Below, one piece after another: positions 28,295 to 35,766 of a stretch of DNA of 64,000 bases. The DNA lies in NCBI GenBank assembly GCA_018057705.1, contig JAGPDF010000012.1, positions 25,415-89,414 of the forward strand, written 5' to 3'. How positions within the stretch are numbered: the first letter of the stretch is position 1; each line of letters begins with the position of its first letter. The notes below the pieces were generated by a model that searched no databases, was not told where the DNA came from, and saw nothing but the letters and a program-made list of their open reading frames with translations. The translations under genes were made by a program, and so were the position numbers. This DNA is from Thermoanaerobaculia bacterium. GTDB taxonomy: Bacteria > Acidobacteriota > Thermoanaerobaculia > Multivoradales > JAGPDF01.

Positions 28295-29647
28295 TTACGG
28301 CAGGGTGACCACGATCACGACGCGCCGGTTCTGCTCCCGTCCGGCCTCGGTGTCGTTCGCGGCGATCGGTTCGGCGCTGCCCCGACTCTCGACCGCGATG
28401 CGACTGCCGTCGATCTGGTGGCGGGTCACCAGGAACGCCTTCGCTGCTTCGGCGCGGCGCAGGCCGAGAGCCTGATTGACCGCGTCGCTGCCCTGGTTGT
28501 CCGCGTGACCGATGATGAGCGCGGTGGCTGCGGGGCTCTGCTTGAGGCGCAGCGCGACCTCGTCCAGCTTGGCCTTGGCGATGTTCGACAGGCGCTCACT
28601 CGAGCTCGGGAAGGCGATCTCTTCACGAACCTCGGTCGGAGCCGGCGGCGGCGGCGGAGCCGGTGCGGGCGCGGGCGCCGGTGCGGGCGCGGGCGCCGGT
28701 GCGGGCGGCGGCGGCGGCGGCGCCGGAGCCGGTGGCGGCTCGACGACCGGGACGAACCGGGCCGGCATCAGCGTGAGGCCGACGAGGCCGCCGACCGGGC
28801 AGTGCTCGTCCGTGTCGGAGAGCTGGTTCAGCTCGAGGCGGAGTCCGAAGTTGACCGCCCAGGTGTGGTTCTCGCCGAACCAGTAGCGTCCGCCGGTGGT
28901 GAGGTCGAAGGCGTCGTCCGCATTCGAGTCGCCACCCTGATAGAAGGTCGCGGCGAGCTCGGTGATCCAGTCGAAGCGATCGTTGATCGCGGCCGCGTAG
29001 CCGACGCCGGCCAGAAGCTCTTCGGAGACGTCGAAGTTGTTGGCGTCACCGGCATCGCGATAGCCGACGTTCGCCAGCCAGTTGTGAGCGAAGTTCCAGT
29101 TGAAACCGACGCCGTAACCGGTGTCGCCGGTGACGATGCCTTCATCCTCGTCGCCCGTCGGCAGCTCGACGAACGCGTTCATGGAGAACGCCTTGCCTGC
29201 ATCCGCGTCGCCGAAGAACTGGTACTTGGCGCCGACCCGGACATTGCCGATGCCGCTGCCCTCGATGTCATCGGCGAAGGCGCGGCCGTTGACGAAGCCA
29301 CGGTGACGGTTGTCGGAGGCCGAGTAATCTTCGTACGGCACCATCAGCGAGAGCTCGAACCGGTCGGAGAGACCGTAGCCGACGCTGGCACCCAGCCGGT
29401 TCCAGTCGTAGTCCCAGTCGTCGGTGAGCGGCGCGGCGACGCCGCCCGGCACCGGCGCCACGAGACGATCCCAATTGTTGTACTGGAAGCCGAGCGACCA
29501 TTCGCCGCGCGGCAGGGTCCAGCCGTCGATCAGGGTGAACAGTCCCGTCTCACCGGTCGCGGTGGGGGCCGACGACACCTGTGCGAGGGCCGGAAGGCCA
29601 GCCACGCAAGAGCCGACCAGGAGCAGAATCATGGGTAATTTCTTCAT
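28295..29647 (-). CDS. OmpA-family outer-membrane protein
   Basis: A 450-residue protein with a GGAGG ribosome site. Residues 1-23 are a signal peptide (LPMILLLVGSCVAGLPALAQ). Residues about 30-300 are rich in alternating aromatic/polar residues and look like a beta-barrel (for example GFNWNFAHNWLANVGY). A Pro/Ala linker spans about 302-336. The C-terminal OmpA domain (about 341-450) contains GHADNQGSDAVNQALGLRRA and ESRGSAEPIAANDTEAGREQ, which include the murein-binding Asp and Arg of NxxLSxxRA-type domains. It links the outer membrane to murein. It is monocistronic, with its own terminator. Confidence 0.88.
   Translation of the reverse strand: MKKLPMILLLVGSCVAGLPALAQVSSAPTATGETGLFTLIDGWTLPRGEWSLGFQYNNWDRLVAPVPGGVAAPLTDDWDYDWNRLGASVGYGLSDRFELSLMVPYEDYSASDNRHRGFVNGRAFADDIEGSGIGNVRVGAKYQFFGDADAGKAFSMNAFVELPTGDEDEGIVTGDTGYGVGFNWNFAHNWLANVGYRDAGDANNFDVSEELLAGVGYAAAINDRFDWITELAATFYQGGDSNADDAFDLTTGGRYWFGENHTWAVNFGLRLELNQLSDTDEHCPVGGLVGLTLMPARFVPVVEPPPAPAPPPPPPAPAPAPAPAPAPAPAPPPPPAPTEVREEIAFPSSSERLSNIAKAKLDEVALRLKQSPAATALIIGHADNQGSDAVNQALGLRRAEAAKAFLVTRHQIDGSRIAVESRGSAEPIAANDTEAGREQNRRVVIVVTLP
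28662..28724. repeat. 18-bp tandem repeat in the linker of the OmpA-like gene
   Basis: Unit GGTGCGGGCGCGGGCGCC occurs at 28662-28679 and again exactly at 28680-28697, with a third degenerate unit to 28724. It encodes the Ala-Pro dipeptide run of the linker between barrel and OmpA domain. Confidence 0.7.
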
Positions 29648-29869: not shown

Positions 29870-30691
29870 TCAAGCGGGCTGCAGGAGCTGTCCGACCCGA
29901 TCGAGGAAGGTCTTGGCCTGGTTCGGGCCGAGCTGCGCCGAAACCACCTTCTCGCAAGCGCGAACCAGGTCCAGCACGGCGTCGGCGCCGCGCCCGGACT
30001 CCATCTCGGCCCGGAACAACCGAAGCGCGCCATCGAGCTGGCCGCCGCGCTCCTGGCCGGTCATCAACTGCTGCCCGAAACGGTAGATCTGTTCCGCTAC
30101 CCGCACCTGCTCGTCGGGTGACATCCGCTGCAGGCGATCGAGCGGCAGGCGCCGGAGATCCTCGCGCAGCGCCAGCACTCCGGCGGTGAGCATGCCGTAG
30201 ATGACCTTGCAGACTTCGAAGGCGCCGTGCCCCAGGCCGGCTGCGATCTCGTCGATGTTGCGGCGCTCGTCCACCTTGGAGACCACCGCCCACTCCGAGG
30301 GCGAGAAGGAAACCGAGCTCAGCCCCTCCTGCGGAGCGAACACCGGGACCATGCGGGTCGAGCCGATCTTCTTGGAGAGAATCTTCCATTCGTCGATCTG
30401 CCGCGCTGCCTCCATGAGGAGGTTGGTGTTCGACTTGTCGATCGACTCGACTTCCGATTCGGTTCCGGGGGTGAAGAGGAACTCGCCCTGCTGCCAGCGC
30501 GCCAGCTCGTAGACCGCATGCTCCCCGACGAGCGTGCTCACGACGGCATGCACGATCTGGCCCTTGCGAAGAAAGATCTTTCCGGCCTCCGCGCCGTTCT
30601 TCAGCGTGAAGACCCCGGTCTTCCCCGATACCGCCACCAACTGAATGATGTCGGGCAGCGGCAACTCACGAAGCGAACCTTGAAAGGCCAC
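29870..30691 (-). CDS. DUF4388 (PATAN) domain protein
   Basis: A 273-residue cytoplasmic protein from GTG 30691. Residues 1-100 match the PATAN/DUF4388 domain: FQGSLRELPLPDIIQLVAVS, KTGVFTLKNG, GKIFLRKGQIVHA and AVYELARWQQGEFLF. This domain occurs in gliding, chemotaxis and two-component proteins of Myxococcota, Acidobacteriota and Cyanobacteria and is thought to mediate protein contacts. The second half (about 110-273) has helical segments and a winged-helix-like block (DERRNIDEIAAGLGHGAFEV) often seen with DUF4388. There is no kinase or receiver partner immediately adjacent. It has a good promoter of its own. Confidence 0.8.
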   Translation of the reverse strand: MAFQGSLRELPLPDIIQLVAVSGKTGVFTLKNGAEAGKIFLRKGQIVHAVVSTLVGEHAVYELARWQQGEFLFTPGTESEVESIDKSNTNLLMEAARQIDEWKILSKKIGSTRMVPVFAPQEGLSSVSFSPSEWAVVSKVDERRNIDEIAAGLGHGAFEVCKVIYGMLTAGVLALREDLRRLPLDRLQRMSPDEQVRVAEQIYRFGQQLMTGQERGGQLDGALRLFRAEMESGRGADAVLDLVRACEKVVSAQLGPNQAKTFLDRVGQLLQPA

Positions 30692-30804: not shown

Positions 30805-31311
30805 CTACTTAGGGACACCTTCAGGCTCCGTCAGGCGACGCAGACTCTGCCGTTGTGAAGAGCACAACGCCACGGCGAGGGCGTCGGTCGCATCGGCAGG
30901 AAAGGCGCCCGTCGCGACTCCGAGGAGGAGCCCGACCATTCGCGCGACCTGGCCCTTCTCGGCCCGCCCGCTGCCGGTGACCGCGCTCTTGACCTCCGCG
31001 GGGGAGTACTCCTCGACCCGCAGGCCGCCGCGCGCGAGGGTGACGAGCAGCGCGCCCCGCGCTTCGGCGAGGACGATCACCGAGCGCGAGTTGACGCCGT
31101 GGAAAGGCCGCTCCAGGGCGGCAAAGTCGGGCCGGAAACGCTGCAGCAGCTCGTCGAGACCGTCGGCGAGGATCTTCAGCCGATCGGCGACAGCGAGCTT
31201 CGGCGGCGCCGACCATCGACCCGCGGCGACCGCCCGCGCCGTGCCGGCGCGGCAATCGATGAGTCCATAGCCTGTGTGCAGGCTGCCAGGGTCGAGTCCG
31301 AGGATGAGCAT
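30805..31311 (-). CDS. ruvC: Crossover junction endodeoxyribonuclease RuvC
   Basis: A 168-residue protein from ATG 31311. RuvC resolves Holliday junctions with RuvAB. Catalytic acids are visible in LILGLDPGSLHTGYGLID (Asp7), ALERPFHGVNSRS (Glu), and the C-terminal DATDALAVAL (two Asp). Middle blocks EARGALLVTLARGGLRVEEY and SPAEVKSAVTGSGRAEKGQV are typical. An in-frame ATG at 31374 adds 21 residues before the conserved start, so I prefer 31311. ruvA and ruvB are not adjacent. It is divergent from the kinase gene. Confidence 0.92.
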   Translation of the reverse strand: MLILGLDPGSLHTGYGLIDCRAGTARAVAAGRWSAPPKLAVADRLKILADGLDELLQRFRPDFAALERPFHGVNSRSVIVLAEARGALLVTLARGGLRVEEYSPAEVKSAVTGSGRAEKGQVARMVGLLLGVATGAFPADATDALAVALCSSQRQSLRRLTEPEGVPK

Positions 31312-31421
31312 GAGATCGCGTTCGCCGGGGATCCGCCTGAGCGCCGGCAGAGGCCCTCCGCACGGAGCGATCATCCTACGCTAAACCCCTCAGGAATCAG
31401 CGGATCGCAGCGACGCGCTGA

Positions 31422-31478: not shown

Positions 31479-34400
31479 ATGTCGTTGATCCTCGTCGTTG
31501 AATCGGAAGGCCGCCACGCTGAGCGCGTGCGCGACGGCCTCGGCTCGGACGGCTGGCAGGTGGAAGTCGTCTCGAGCTGTGAAGCCGCGGTGGCCGCAGT
31601 GGCGGATCGCGCCCCGCAGCTCGTCATCGTCAACGCCGAGTTGCCGGGTGCTCCAGAGATGCTGCGCAGCTTTTCGCGGGCCCAGGGCGGACCGGGATCG
31701 ATCGCGCTCCTGCCAGAGATCGTGGGCAAAGACCTGGGGCATCTCGAAGCCGACGAGTCGCTGATCAAGCCGTTCACCGAGAAGGACCTTCGGCAGCTCG
31801 CGCGCCGTGTCGCGAGCAGCGCGCGCACGCCGCGCAAGAGCGAGACCGAGGTCGATGCCGACCCGAAGAGGCTGACCTCGCACGAGCTGTTCGGCGACCT
31901 GCTCGCCGAAGTCGAAAACGAGGTCGAGGGCGTGCTGCCGGCGAAGAGCCCCGAGGCCGCCCCCCGACCGGCGCCGGCGCCGGTCGCTCCGGTTGCCGGC
32001 GCGCGATCGCTGGAGATGGAGCAGCGCCTCGAGCGCACCCTCTCCGGTTTGACGAAGGACGACCGGCCGGTCGCCGCGCCGCCCAAGAAGGCTTCGACGC
32101 AGATCGACGACATGCTGACGCGGACGCTCTCCGGTCTCGACATGCCGAAGAAGTCGATCAAGGCGGCGACCCCGGCCGCGCCGGCGAGCCCCGCGCCGGC
32201 GCCACGGCCCACGCCCGCCCCTGCGCCCCCCCCCGCAGTCACCGCGAAGCCAGAGCCGGCGCCACCCGCGCCGTCCACACCACCCGCTGCGCCGCCCGCG
32301 GCAGCCACGGCGGCGATCCCGCTCGTCCCTCCGCCGGCTGTGGTGCCCCCCCCGGCCGCCAAGCCCCCCGCTCCCACGCCGCCCGCGGCGCCCAAACCGC
32401 CGGCCACTCCGGCGACGCCCGCCATGGCCGCGCCCGCGGCGCGCAAGCAGAGCCGGGAGATCGACCTGGCCCAGCTCGATGAGCTTGCCAAGCCGCGCGC
32501 CAGGGAGAGCACGCCTTCGGCACGGCCCGCCGCCAAGGAGGGTTTCGCCACCCAGAAGATCTCCATCCAGCCCTCCTTCCTGCAGCCGCCGTCGAGTGAG
32601 TTCGGGCAGTACACGCTGCTCGAGCGGATCGCCGTCGGCGGCATGGCGGAGGTCTGGAAGGCGCGGATGAAAGGCGTCGAGGGTTTCCAGAAGACGGTCG
32701 CGATCAAGAAGATCCTGCCCCACCTCACCGACAGCTCCGACTTCGTCACGATGTTCATCGACGAGGCGAAGCTCGCCGCCCAGCTCAATCACAACAACAT
32801 CATCCACATCTACGACCTCGGCAAGATCGGCGACGACTATTTCATCGCAATGGAGTTCGTGGACGGCAAGGACCTGCGCTCGATCCTGAACAGCGCGCGC
32901 GCCGAAAGCCGCCCGCTGCCGCTCGGCCTGGCTCTGCTGGTCGGTTCGCGGCTCGCCTCGGCGCTCGATCATGCGCACCGGCAGAAGGACTTCGAAGGCC
33001 GGGCCCTGGGCCTCGTGCATCGCGACGTCTCGCCCCAGAATGTCCTGATCAGTTACGAAGGCGACATCAAGCTCTGCGACTTCGGGATCGTCAAGGCGGT
33101 CACCAAAGCGTCGAAGACCCAGATGGGCGCTCTCAAAGGCAAGCTCCAGTACATGTCCCCCGAGCAGGCCTGGGGACGCCCCGTCGATGCGCGTTCCGAC
33201 ATCTTCTCGCTCGGCTCGCTGCTGTTCGAGATGCTGACCGGCAGGAGGCTCTTCTCCGGCGAAAGCGAGATGTCGGTCCTCGACGCCGTGCGCGAGGGCC
33301 GGATCCAGGCGCCGCGGGATCTCGACCCGAGGCTGCCGCTGGAGGTGAACGCGCTGGTTCTCAAGGCACTGGCGCGCGATCCCGACGACCGCTTCTCCTC
33401 GGCCGGCGAGATGCAACGCGAAATCGACGGCATTCTCGCCTCGCTCAAGCCGGCGCCTTCGCAGGCGGACCTCGGCGTTTACCTGCACCAGCTCTTCGCC
33501 GCCGAAGCCGCGGCAGGTGCGGCTCCGGCCTTCTCGGGGGCACTGCCGTCGATCGCGCCAGCTCCCGCCGCGCGCAGCGCCGCCGCCCCCCCGTCAGCGG
33601 CGGTGCCGGGGCGGCAGCCGGAGGTCGCGGTCGTGGCTCCGACCGGCGTCTCGAAGATCGAAGAGCCCGACGCTGGACGCAGCGGCAAGATGCTCTGGAT
33701 CGCCATCGGAGGCGTCGCGGCCGCCGGCCTCATCGCCTACTTCGCGCTCGGCCGCGGTAAGGCGTCCGCACCCTCGACCCCGCCCGCGGCGACCGAGATC
33801 GCGGCGCCGACGCAGGACGTCGCGAATGCCACAGGCACTGCGGGAACCAGCGAGGCCGGCACTCCCGCGGCGCCCGCGACCACGGTGTCCGAGGTGCCGG
33901 CCGCGCCGCCGGCAGCGGCACCCGCCGCAGGACAGAACGTCGACCAGTTGGTGAGCGACGAGGTCAAGCGGCGCGAGGAAGAGCTCAAGCGGAAATACGA
34001 AGAGGAGCTCGCGCGCCGCAAGGCCGAGCTCGACAAGCTGAACACCAAGCCGCCGGCGGCCGCGCAAGCGCCGGCGACCGTCGCGGCCGCACCGCCGGTC
34101 GCGCAGGAAGTCCCGGTCGAGACGGCACCGGCACCCGCCCCGGCCGAGCCCGAGGTGGTCGCGCCGCCCGCCGCCGAGCCGGTCGTCGAAGCGCCGCCAG
34201 CGGCGCCGGCGGCGCCGCTGGTCAAGGAAGGCGATCTCGTCCGGCCGGGCGCCGGAGTGAAGCCGCCAGTTCTTGTCAGCCTCACGAAACCAGAGTATCC
34301 TGCGATGGCTCGACGCATGAAAGTGGAGGGGACAGTCATCGTGTCCCTGCTGGTCGACGAGACCGGCCGAGTCGCGGAAACGCGCCTCGAAAGCGGAGTG

Positions 34401-34526
34401 TCGCAGAAGGTCGGCATCAACGAAGCGGCGGTCGCGGCAGCAAAGTCTGCGGTGTTCAGTCCCGCCACCAAGTCTGGCGTGCGGGTGAAGATGTGGTACC
34501 AACTCAAGATTCCGTTCAAGCTGTAA
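31479..34526 (+). CDS. Pseudo-receiver / Ser-Thr kinase / TonB C-terminal domain fusion protein
   Basis: A 1015-residue multidomain protein. Residues 1-120 look like a response-regulator receiver, but the acceptor Asp is Asn (LVIVNAELPG) and the acidic pair is Glu-Ser-Glu; the Lys (LIKPF) remains. A Pro/Ala linker follows. The Hanks-type kinase (about 375-660) is complete: glycine loop AVGGMAEVWKA, VAIKK, HRDVSPQNVL, CDFGIVKA and SPEQAWGRPVDARSDIFSLG. A membrane helix (about 737-758, LWIAIGGVAAAGLIAYFALG) is followed by a second Pro/Ala region with a coiled coil (EVKRREEELKRKYEEELARR). The C terminus (about 929-1015: PEYPAMARRMKVEGTVIVSL) is a TonB_C domain, presumably periplasmic. It is followed by a coiled-coil gene. 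Confidence 0.88.
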   Translation: MSLILVVESEGRHAERVRDGLGSDGWQVEVVSSCEAAVAAVADRAPQLVIVNAELPGAPEMLRSFSRAQGGPGSIALLPEIVGKDLGHLEADESLIKPFTEKDLRQLARRVASSARTPRKSETEVDADPKRLTSHELFGDLLAEVENEVEGVLPAKSPEAAPRPAPAPVAPVAGARSLEMEQRLERTLSGLTKDDRPVAAPPKKASTQIDDMLTRTLSGLDMPKKSIKAATPAAPASPAPAPRPTPAPAPPPAVTAKPEPAPPAPSTPPAAPPAAATAAIPLVPPPAVVPPPAAKPPAPTPPAAPKPPATPATPAMAAPAARKQSREIDLAQLDELAKPRARESTPSARPAAKEGFATQKISIQPSFLQPPSSEFGQYTLLERIAVGGMAEVWKARMKGVEGFQKTVAIKKILPHLTDSSDFVTMFIDEAKLAAQLNHNNIIHIYDLGKIGDDYFIAMEFVDGKDLRSILNSARAESRPLPLGLALLVGSRLASALDHAHRQKDFEGRALGLVHRDVSPQNVLISYEGDIKLCDFGIVKAVTKASKTQMGALKGKLQYMSPEQAWGRPVDARSDIFSLGSLLFEMLTGRRLFSGESEMSVLDAVREGRIQAPRDLDPRLPLEVNALVLKALARDPDDRFSSAGEMQREIDGILASLKPAPSQADLGVYLHQLFAAEAAAGAAPAFSGALPSIAPAPAARSAAAPPSAAVPGRQPEVAVVAPTGVSKIEEPDAGRSGKMLWIAIGGVAAAGLIAYFALGRGKASAPSTPPAATEIAAPTQDVANATGTAGTSEAGTPAAPATTVSEVPAAPPAAAPAAGQNVDQLVSDEVKRREEELKRKYEEELARRKAELDKLNTKPPAAAQAPATVAAAPPVAQEVPVETAPAPAPAEPEVVAPPAAEPVVEAPPAAPAAPLVKEGDLVRPGAGVKPPVLVSLTKPEYPAMARRMKVEGTVIVSLLVDETGRVAETRLESGVSQKVGINEAAVAAAKSAVFSPATKSGVRVKMWYQLKIPFKL

Positions 34527-34535
34527 GGAGAACGC

Positions 34536-34769
34536 ATGAGCCTGAACGACCAACAGCGGAAGTTCTACGAGAACACCCTCTCCGTCACCAAGCAGGAGAT
34601 TTCGGATCTCGATCGTCAGATCGAGGACGAGCTCGCCAAGGTGAAGGAGAAGCTCGCCCAGCTGCAGAACGCGAAGAAGGCCGCGCGCCAGATGTACGAC
34701 GCCGCCTGCCTTCGTCTCGGAATTCCGAACGACCTCGAGGCGGAGGAAGAGGGCGCAGCCGAAATCTGA
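34536..34769 (+). CDS. Small coiled-coil protein coupled to the kinase gene
   Basis: A 77-residue protein with an AAGGAG ribosome site, 9 bp after the kinase-TonB stop. Residues 5-50 form one long heptad-like helix (QEISDLDRQIEDELAKVKEK, LAQLQNAKKAARQMYDAACL), and the tail is acidic (EAEEEGAAEI). No membrane segment or catalytic motif is present. It might be a partner or substrate of the kinase because they share an operon, which is inference. A terminator-like hairpin follows. Confidence 0.7.
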   Translation: MSLNDQQRKFYENTLSVTKQEISDLDRQIEDELAKVKEKLAQLQNAKKAARQMYDAACLRLGIPNDLEAEEEGAAEI

Positions 34770-34920: not shown

Positions 34921-35766
34921 ATGGCCTGGTTCAAGAAAGACAAGAAGCCGAAAGCCGTCCGTGAATCGCGCGAGCGCAGCACGGTGCCGGAGGGTCTCTG
35001 GCTGCGCTGCGACGGTTGCCGGGAGATCGTCTACTCGAAAGAGCTCGAGCGCAATCTCCGCATCTGCCCGAAGTGCGGCTACCACTTCCGCATCGACGCG
35101 CCGGCGCGCATCGCCCTGCTGCTCGACGATCCGGGTGCGAAGACCCTCTTCGACGAGGTCGTACCCGCCGATCCGCTCGGATTCACCGACACGAAGCGCT
35201 ACGCCGACCGCCTGAAGGCCTACCAGAAGGCCCTCGGCGTCGCCGATGCCGCGATCGTCGTCGCCGGAGCCATCGAAGAGATGCCCGTGGTGCTCGCGGT
35301 CATGGACTACCGGTTCATGGGCGGCTCGATGGGCTCCGTCGTCGGCGAGAAGCTCACCCGCGCCGCCGAGGCCGCTCGTGATCGAAAGCTCCCGCTGATC
35401 ATCGTCTCGGCCTCGGGGGGGGCGCGCATGCAGGAGGGCATCCTCTCGCTCATGCAGATGGCGAAGATCTCGGCCGCCCTGATGCGCCTGCGCGAGGCCG
35501 GGGTGCCCTACATCTCGGTGCTCACCGACCCGACGACCGGCGGCGTCACGGCATCGTTCGCGATGCTGGGCGACCTGAACATCGCCGAGCCCGGCGCCCT
35601 CATCGGCTTCGCCGGACCGCGCGTCATCGAGCAGACGATCCGACAGAGCCTCCCCGAGGGGTTCCAGCGCAGCGAGTTCCTGCTCGAGCACGGCTTCCTC
35701 GACCTCGTCGTGCCGCGGCCCGAGCTCAAGGCGACGCTCGCGCGCTGCCTGCGGCACCTCGCCTGA
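34921..35766 (+). CDS. accD: Acetyl-CoA carboxylase carboxyltransferase subunit beta
   Basis: A 281-residue protein of standard AccD length. The zinc ribbon CDGC...CPKC spans about residues 30-52 (LRCDGC, ICPKCGYHFR). The carboxyltransferase fold follows with VVAGAIEEMPVVLAVMDYRF, GGSMGSVVGEKLTRAAEAA, IIVSASGGARMQEGILSLMQ, and TDPTTGGVTASFAMLGD. AccD transfers carboxyl from biotin to acetyl-CoA to start fatty acid synthesis. accA is absent here. accD-folC is a common neighbour pair, and folC follows after 29 bp. Confidence 0.95.
   Translation: MAWFKKDKKPKAVRESRERSTVPEGLWLRCDGCREIVYSKELERNLRICPKCGYHFRIDAPARIALLLDDPGAKTLFDEVVPADPLGFTDTKRYADRLKAYQKALGVADAAIVVAGAIEEMPVVLAVMDYRFMGGSMGSVVGEKLTRAAEAARDRKLPLIIVSASGGARMQEGILSLMQMAKISAALMRLREAGVPYISVLTDPTTGGVTASFAMLGDLNIAEPGALIGFAGPRVIEQTIRQSLPEGFQRSEFLLEHGFLDLVVPRPELKATLARCLRHLA

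Follow-up and report, generated by a model that had tools for sequence, protein, structure and literature searches.

The window analyzed here, a 64,000-nt stretch of DNA, contains an uninterrupted open reading frame on the plus strand (31479..34526) that starts with an ATG at 31479, preceded by a GGGAG sequence, ends with a stop codon at 34524-34526 and encodes a protein of 1015 aa. From N to C terminus, the protein consists of an Asp-less receiver-like domain, a Hanks-type Ser/Thr kinase domain, one membrane helix, a periplasmic helix within a Pro/Ala spacer, and a TonB_C domain. A preliminary description of the locus had proposed a receiver, a full Hanks kinase, one membrane helix and TonB_C; Pfam, AlphaFold, Foldseek and hydropathy analyses confirmed this more strongly than it had been stated. 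The best explanation is that the gene encodes a single-pass transmembrane receptor Ser/Thr kinase of an Acidobacteriota bacterium, with a topology that we infer. A Pfam scan of the 1015-aa protein revealed neither an FHA domain nor a known peptidoglycan-binding domain. Upstream and divergent to the kinase gene lies ruvC (30805..31374, minus strand; Pfam RuvC, 9.9e-39), followed by a DUF4388 gene (29870..30691, minus strand; Pfam DUF4388, 3.5e-27, and synteny). Downstream are a small gene for a 77-aa protein and accD (34921..35766, plus strand; Pfam Carboxyl_trans, 4.4e-19, and Zn_ribbon_ACC, with synteny), a neighbor kept in most loci. Also near the kinase locus is a minus-strand frame (28295-29647) whose product has an OmpA-family C-terminal domain (3.1e-18), a Pro/Ala linker and possibly a barrel-like N-terminal half.

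A scan of genome contigs yielded 79 relatives, mostly from Acidobacteriota MAGs of the Thermoanaerobaculia and Holophagae, and their frames were extracted and aligned. With a profile of the helix, spacer and TonB_C region, matches were obtained in 147 of 148 genomes of the class (at 1e-12) and, in a sample from the phylum, in 98 of 199 genomes (at 1e-25). A match to this profile is not by itself proof that the genome encodes such a kinase, and short TonB-like frames are among the matches in both sets. The preliminary description had regarded the architecture as novel provided that it was not already common. It proved common in the class and also occurs elsewhere in the phylum, which in part lowers the novelty, but our lexical search of open-access papers found none describing a kinase–TonB_C fusion.

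The pseudo-receiver domain spans residues 4-107 (31488..31799, plus strand). When the N-terminal part was scanned alone, Response_reg matched residues 4-106 with an E value of 3.7e-05 and 24.3 bits, under the cut-off of 30.2. The assignment of this sub-threshold domain is nevertheless secure, because Response_reg was matched by 39 of the 41 aligned family members (best 4e-21), the AlphaFold model of the receiver has a mean pLDDT of 88, and a Foldseek search with that model identified solved receivers at a TM of about 0.8, including the Asp-less receiver of FrzS. As the preliminary description had stated for the sequence LVIVNAELPG, the phospho-acceptor position, residue 52, is an Asn in the window protein. 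Counts of this position and of the linker motifs below were made on stop-to-stop frames, and rows truncated at a contig end were not scored as losses. Among 68 relatives, the acceptor position is Ser in 24, Thr in 23, Asn in 11, Ala in 3, Arg in 3, Gly in 1, Cys in 1 and Asp in 2. The acceptor Asp is thus absent from 66/68, and Ser or Thr is found in 47/68, a number that is an observation and not a test because the relatives are not independent samples.

The linker between receiver and kinase carries two conserved motifs. Motif 1, LTSHELFGDLL (31872..31904, plus strand), belongs to an LFGD-type class present in 67/68 relatives, compared to 0.35 expected from shuffled linkers. Motif 2, of the type TL[SA]G, was found in 66/68 relatives against 0.19 expected from shuffles and occurs twice in the window protein, as LEMEQRLERTLSGL (32010..32051, plus strand) and QIDDMLTRTLSGL (32100..32138, plus strand).

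The Hanks-type Ser/Thr kinase domain (32610..33404, plus strand; Pkinase, 6.7e-38, residues 378-642) retains intact VAIK, HRDVSPQN, DFG and SPE motifs, such that the kinase Lys, the HRD Asp, the DFG Asp and the APE Glu are all present. Its closest solved structure is that of PknB, a PASTA kinase. PASTA repeats were absent from the Pfam scan, and the model NF033483 scored 276.6 bits, below its threshold of 450. The sampled loci encode two paralogues, one an active-kinase form, with the Lys, HRD Asp and DFG Asp intact in 21/21 sampled members, and the other a pseudokinase–TonB_C form, in which the HRD Asp and DFG Asp are missing in 21/21 and the VAIK Lys is retained in one. By its catalytic residues, the window gene is the predicted active-kinase form. 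The pseudokinase form adjoins mltG in 20/21 loci, nearly always together with yqgF/ruvX. The window genome holds both paralogues, the second being a pseudokinase–TM–coiled coil–TonB_C protein (L021:11743-13698, equal to C2:95754-97688 of the window genome, minus strand; Pkinase 37.8 bits, TonB_C 3.7e-15) that lies ∼7 kb from a tonB-exbB-exbD-exbD cluster on contig C2. The query gave 89 match rows in the window genome, mostly to the kinase domain and some of them split, indicating a large kinome.

The single transmembrane helix comprises residues 739-757 (33693..33749, plus strand), is evident from hydropathy and as a modeled helix, and contains no His. Within the Pro/Ala-rich spacer that follows, residues 820-855 (33936..34043, plus strand) form a charged helix, likely a coiled coil, which corresponds to helix 85-120 of the AlphaFold model of the C-terminal part (pLDDT about 95). 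The spacer, of about 180 residues, would be long enough to cross the periplasm and reach the outer membrane. The TonB_C domain occupies residues 937-1015 (34287..34523, plus strand) and was matched by Pfam with an E value of 3.6e-15 and 56.6 bits, well over the cut-off of 24.6. Its sequence profile matches solved TonB domains (1u07, E 4.9e-14), and its fold matches 9dc4 (TMt 0.81) and the BtuB:TonB structure 2gsk (TMt 0.82). The charges flanking the membrane helix do not decide the topology; we assign the TonB_C end to the periplasmic side because the kinase needs ATP.

The preliminary description had likened this half of the protein to TonB itself. The likeness holds for the C-terminal domain and fails for the anchor, which is an internal helix without His and has a large cytoplasmic half in front of it. 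TonB_C was seen in 65/80 rows, many of the remaining rows being cut by contig ends, and His is absent from the membrane helix in all 65 of these TonB_C-bearing rows, whereas it is present in the helix of the TonB proteins from the window genome and from the linked exb modules. The His in the membrane helix of TonB is important, an H20A mutant being inactive (PMC11658791). Thus, energizing of the TonB-like kind is unlikely here. In a tree based on few alignment columns, the TonB_C domains of both paralogue forms clustered with each other and separately from eight canonical domains of the TonB type (100/99). The tree prompted us to consider concerted evolution of the kinase and pseudokinase TonB_C domains within a genome, which the data did not bear out as a general feature: identity was 0.396 for same-genome and 0.388 for same-family comparisons (within-family permutation p 0.36, 35 genome pairs). 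In one genome, G048 (L109 and L136), the kinase and pseudokinase TonB_C domains are 81% identical, compared to 26-51% in other genome pairs, likely reflecting a recent exchange in that genome only.

TonB_C is missing from at least five relatives with a complete 3′ end (L031, L042, L045, L060 and L089), which keep the kinase, membrane helix and coiled coil; four of these 3′-complete relatives adjoin exbB-exbD-tonB. L050 also ends without TonB_C but contains an N run, and a further group of relatives has a weak TonB_C. Receptor contact is therefore not needed by every member of the family, and the domain is dispensable in these relatives. A separate TonB_C gene does not replace the lost domain: at these loci, TonB_C is encoded separately only by the tonB gene of the divergent exb module, a gene also present in domain-bearing relatives. 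Two further kinase relatives are shorter, L101 ending soon after the helix and L100 before any helix. The domain is found on yet another kind of protein in the window genome. A 565-aa frame on contig C1 (L022:2661-4355, minus strand) encodes a GGDEF domain (2.4e-38) followed by TonB_C (8.6e-12), and it has a relative in G069 with a match spanning both domains. This is a third output type beside kinase and pseudokinase, and the presence of TonB_C on the pseudokinase and the GGDEF protein of the same genome suggests that the domain may serve there as a general module for envelope sensing.

The gene for the 77-aa protein (34536..34769, plus strand) starts 9 nt past the kinase stop codon with its own Shine-Dalgarno sequence, AAGGAG, and is predicted to encode a coiled-coil partner of the kinase. 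It follows the kinase gene in 67/68 loci with at least 1.2 kb of downstream DNA and is on the kinase strand in 71/71. The protein has a strongly conserved C-terminal stretch of the AARQMYDAACLRLGIPNDLE type. It could not be placed in a known family, with no Pfam match over the cut-off and no NCBIfam match.

The preliminary description had reported no exbB, exbD or receptor gene nearby. This holds for the window genome, in which such genes lie on other contigs: only two MotA/TolQ/ExbB genes (contigs C2 and C13), one of them beside tonB and the other beside tolB-pal; 12 Plug-domain matches, all on contigs other than that of the kinase; and the tonB-exbB-exbD-exbD cluster on C2. Thus, with receptors and a TonB cluster encoded, partners exist in the window genome. 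The statement does not hold for the relatives, in which TonB-pathway genes flank the kinase gene. An exbB-exbD-exbD-tonB module, which where present lies between the DUF4388 gene and ruvC, is divergent to the kinase in 21 of the 54 loci with enough upstream DNA, and linked ExbB is divergent in all 24 loci having one. On the other side, BtuF-like and BtuC-like genes are found in 25 and 23, respectively, of the 54 loci with enough downstream DNA, in the order kinase, 77-aa gene, btuF, btuC, all on one strand. The BtuF start lies on the kinase strand within 600 nt of the end of the 77-aa gene in 28/29 cases, and 26/26 BtuC matches share the kinase strand. These genes were assigned by Pfam (Peripla_BP_2 and FecCD); in NCBIfam, models for vitamin B12 transport are among their best matches, at scores below the equivalog cut-off. 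The exb and BtuF/BtuC modules occur together at 2 loci only, and neither is found at the window locus or at that of the same-genus relative L028.

At one locus, L104, the kinase and the small gene are followed by genes for a binding protein and a FecCD permease, an ORF placed where the ATPase gene would be expected, and a gene for a complete TonB-dependent receptor (Plug 5.7e-20, barrel 2e-36); from the binding-protein gene onward, neighboring frames overlap or are separated by 3 nt. At L105, a Plug-domain gene is cut by the contig end. A receptor gene does not lie near the kinase in most loci, as three window-genome receptors used as queries matched only L104 and L105. No cobalamin riboswitch reached the gathering score in eight kinase loci (L132, L135, L137-L140, L142 and L143), all with a FecCD-type permease. 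The neighbors of the kinase gene also include the housekeeping genes ruvC, accD and folC, and some of the linkage may therefore be inherited gene order.

We tentatively favor a reading in which the protein is a transmembrane receptor kinase whose TonB_C tip reads TonB-dependent uptake and reports it to the cytoplasm. The kinase and pseudo-receiver would lie in the cytoplasm, with the periplasmic helix and the long Pro/Ala tether carrying TonB_C toward the outer membrane. There the tip would contact TonB-dependent receptors, or the TonB-ExbB-ExbD assembly that serves them, in corrinoid or iron-chelate uptake, and the transport state would change the pairing or spacing of the kinase domains and thereby, we presume, phosphorylation of putative substrates. 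The Asp-less receiver, the two linker motifs and the 77-aa coiled-coil partner may set docking, autophosphorylation or output. The coupling of the kinase to outer-membrane transporters, already suggested in the preliminary description, is supported in part: exb/tonB, BtuF/BtuC and the L104 receptor genes are next to the relatives' genes, but the window locus has neither module. That description also raised a possible mechanical engagement from outside. What speaks most against uptake sensing is that several relatives have lost TonB_C; in addition, TonB_C domains may bind targets other than receptors.

The same periplasmic half could instead serve a cell-wall sensor, in which the TonB_C tip and helix attach to peptidoglycan or some other structure of the envelope and the kinase signals the state of the wall, much as a PASTA kinase does but with a different sensor. 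We consider this unlikely, though less so than the alternatives below. The kinase domain is nearest to PknB among solved structures, the pseudokinase paralogue, whose periplasmic half is of the same kind, neighbors the lytic transglycosylase gene mltG, and the small coiled-coil partner recalls GpsB, a PASTA-kinase adaptor. However, the active form in the relatives sits with uptake genes and not with wall genes, and the protein lacks any peptidoglycan-binding domain known to Pfam. Association with ExbB-ExbD, the kinase sensing or controlling motor force, appears improbable. The divergent exb modules would fit such a role, as would GltG (PglI) of the Myxococcus gliding machinery, a protein with a cytoplasmic FHA domain, a membrane span and a Pro-rich TonB_C that is linked to a TolQR/ExbBD-type motor and contacts the motor subunit AglR in two-hybrid assays, a precedent for motor contact by a TonB_C protein that has a cytoplasmic domain (PMC3169522). 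Against it, the helix His that matters in TonB is lacking throughout the TonB_C-bearing rows, and the BtuFC-type loci are mostly without an exb module. Since TonB-like energizing is unlikely, although GltG contacts a motor subunit, uptake sensing is tentatively preferred over a motor role. Comparably improbable is that TonB_C is an incidental anchor and that control of the kinase is exerted on the cytoplasmic side, through the pseudo-receiver, the linker motifs and the small partner. The linker motifs and the small gene are conserved at least as well as TonB_C, and kinase and partner persist in relatives without the domain; yet most rows retain TonB_C, many of the others being cut, and its presence on the pseudokinase and GGDEF proteins suggests a useful periplasmic module.

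The protein is best filed among transmembrane receptor kinases, as a variant. With the Hanks-type receptor kinases PknB, StkP and PrkC it shares a cytoplasmic kinase, a single membrane helix and an extracytoplasmic sensor; unlike these PASTA kinases, it has a TonB_C sensor in place of PASTA repeats, a pseudo-receiver and motif-bearing linker in front, and a Gram-negative type envelope around it. The Pro-rich spacer and TonB_C fold are common to TonB, the ExbB-ExbD-energized transducer, from which it differs in its anchor, its large cytoplasmic half and the grouping of its TonB_C with that of the pseudokinase. The likeness to GltG is one of domain layout, with a cytoplasmic signaling domain, a membrane span and a Pro-rich TonB_C in both, the signaling domain being FHA there and a pseudo-receiver plus kinase here. 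In the FecA-FecR-FecI system the output is a sigma factor, reached via FecR; to our knowledge it involves no kinase, and its inner-membrane signaler is without TonB_C. The resemblance to the proposed kinase role lies in transport-state signaling, as the state of a TonB-dependent receptor is passed across the envelope (PMC11658791). If uptake sensing is correct, protein phosphorylation would inform the cytoplasm about the state of TonB-dependent uptake throughout a whole bacterial class, and none of the open-access papers searched describes such a route. The operon of kinase, 77-aa partner, ABC importer and receptor would provide a defined system for an inner-membrane kinase reading an outer-membrane transporter.

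The receiver shares its fold and lack of Asp with aspartate-less receivers (ALR, or pseudo-receivers) such as that of FrzS, and differs from them in being fused to a Ser/Thr kinase and in having Ser or Thr at the acceptor position in most members. A survey of such receivers named Ser/Thr at the former Asp as possible Ser/Thr kinase sites, as a speculation (PMC4395418). There is a slim chance that the receiver has been rewired from His-Asp to Ser/Thr phosphorylation. In that case the attached Hanks kinase would phosphorylate the former phospho-Asp site in cis or trans, with the pseudokinase–TonB_C paralogue as partner, and the TonB_C tip, by reading outer-membrane transport, would control this step. 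A receiver with Ser/Thr for Asp fused to a Ser/Thr kinase makes the regulation of Asp-less receivers directly testable. Under this rewired-receiver reading, the lineage of the window member, with Asn at the acceptor position, would have lost or altered that phosphorylation.
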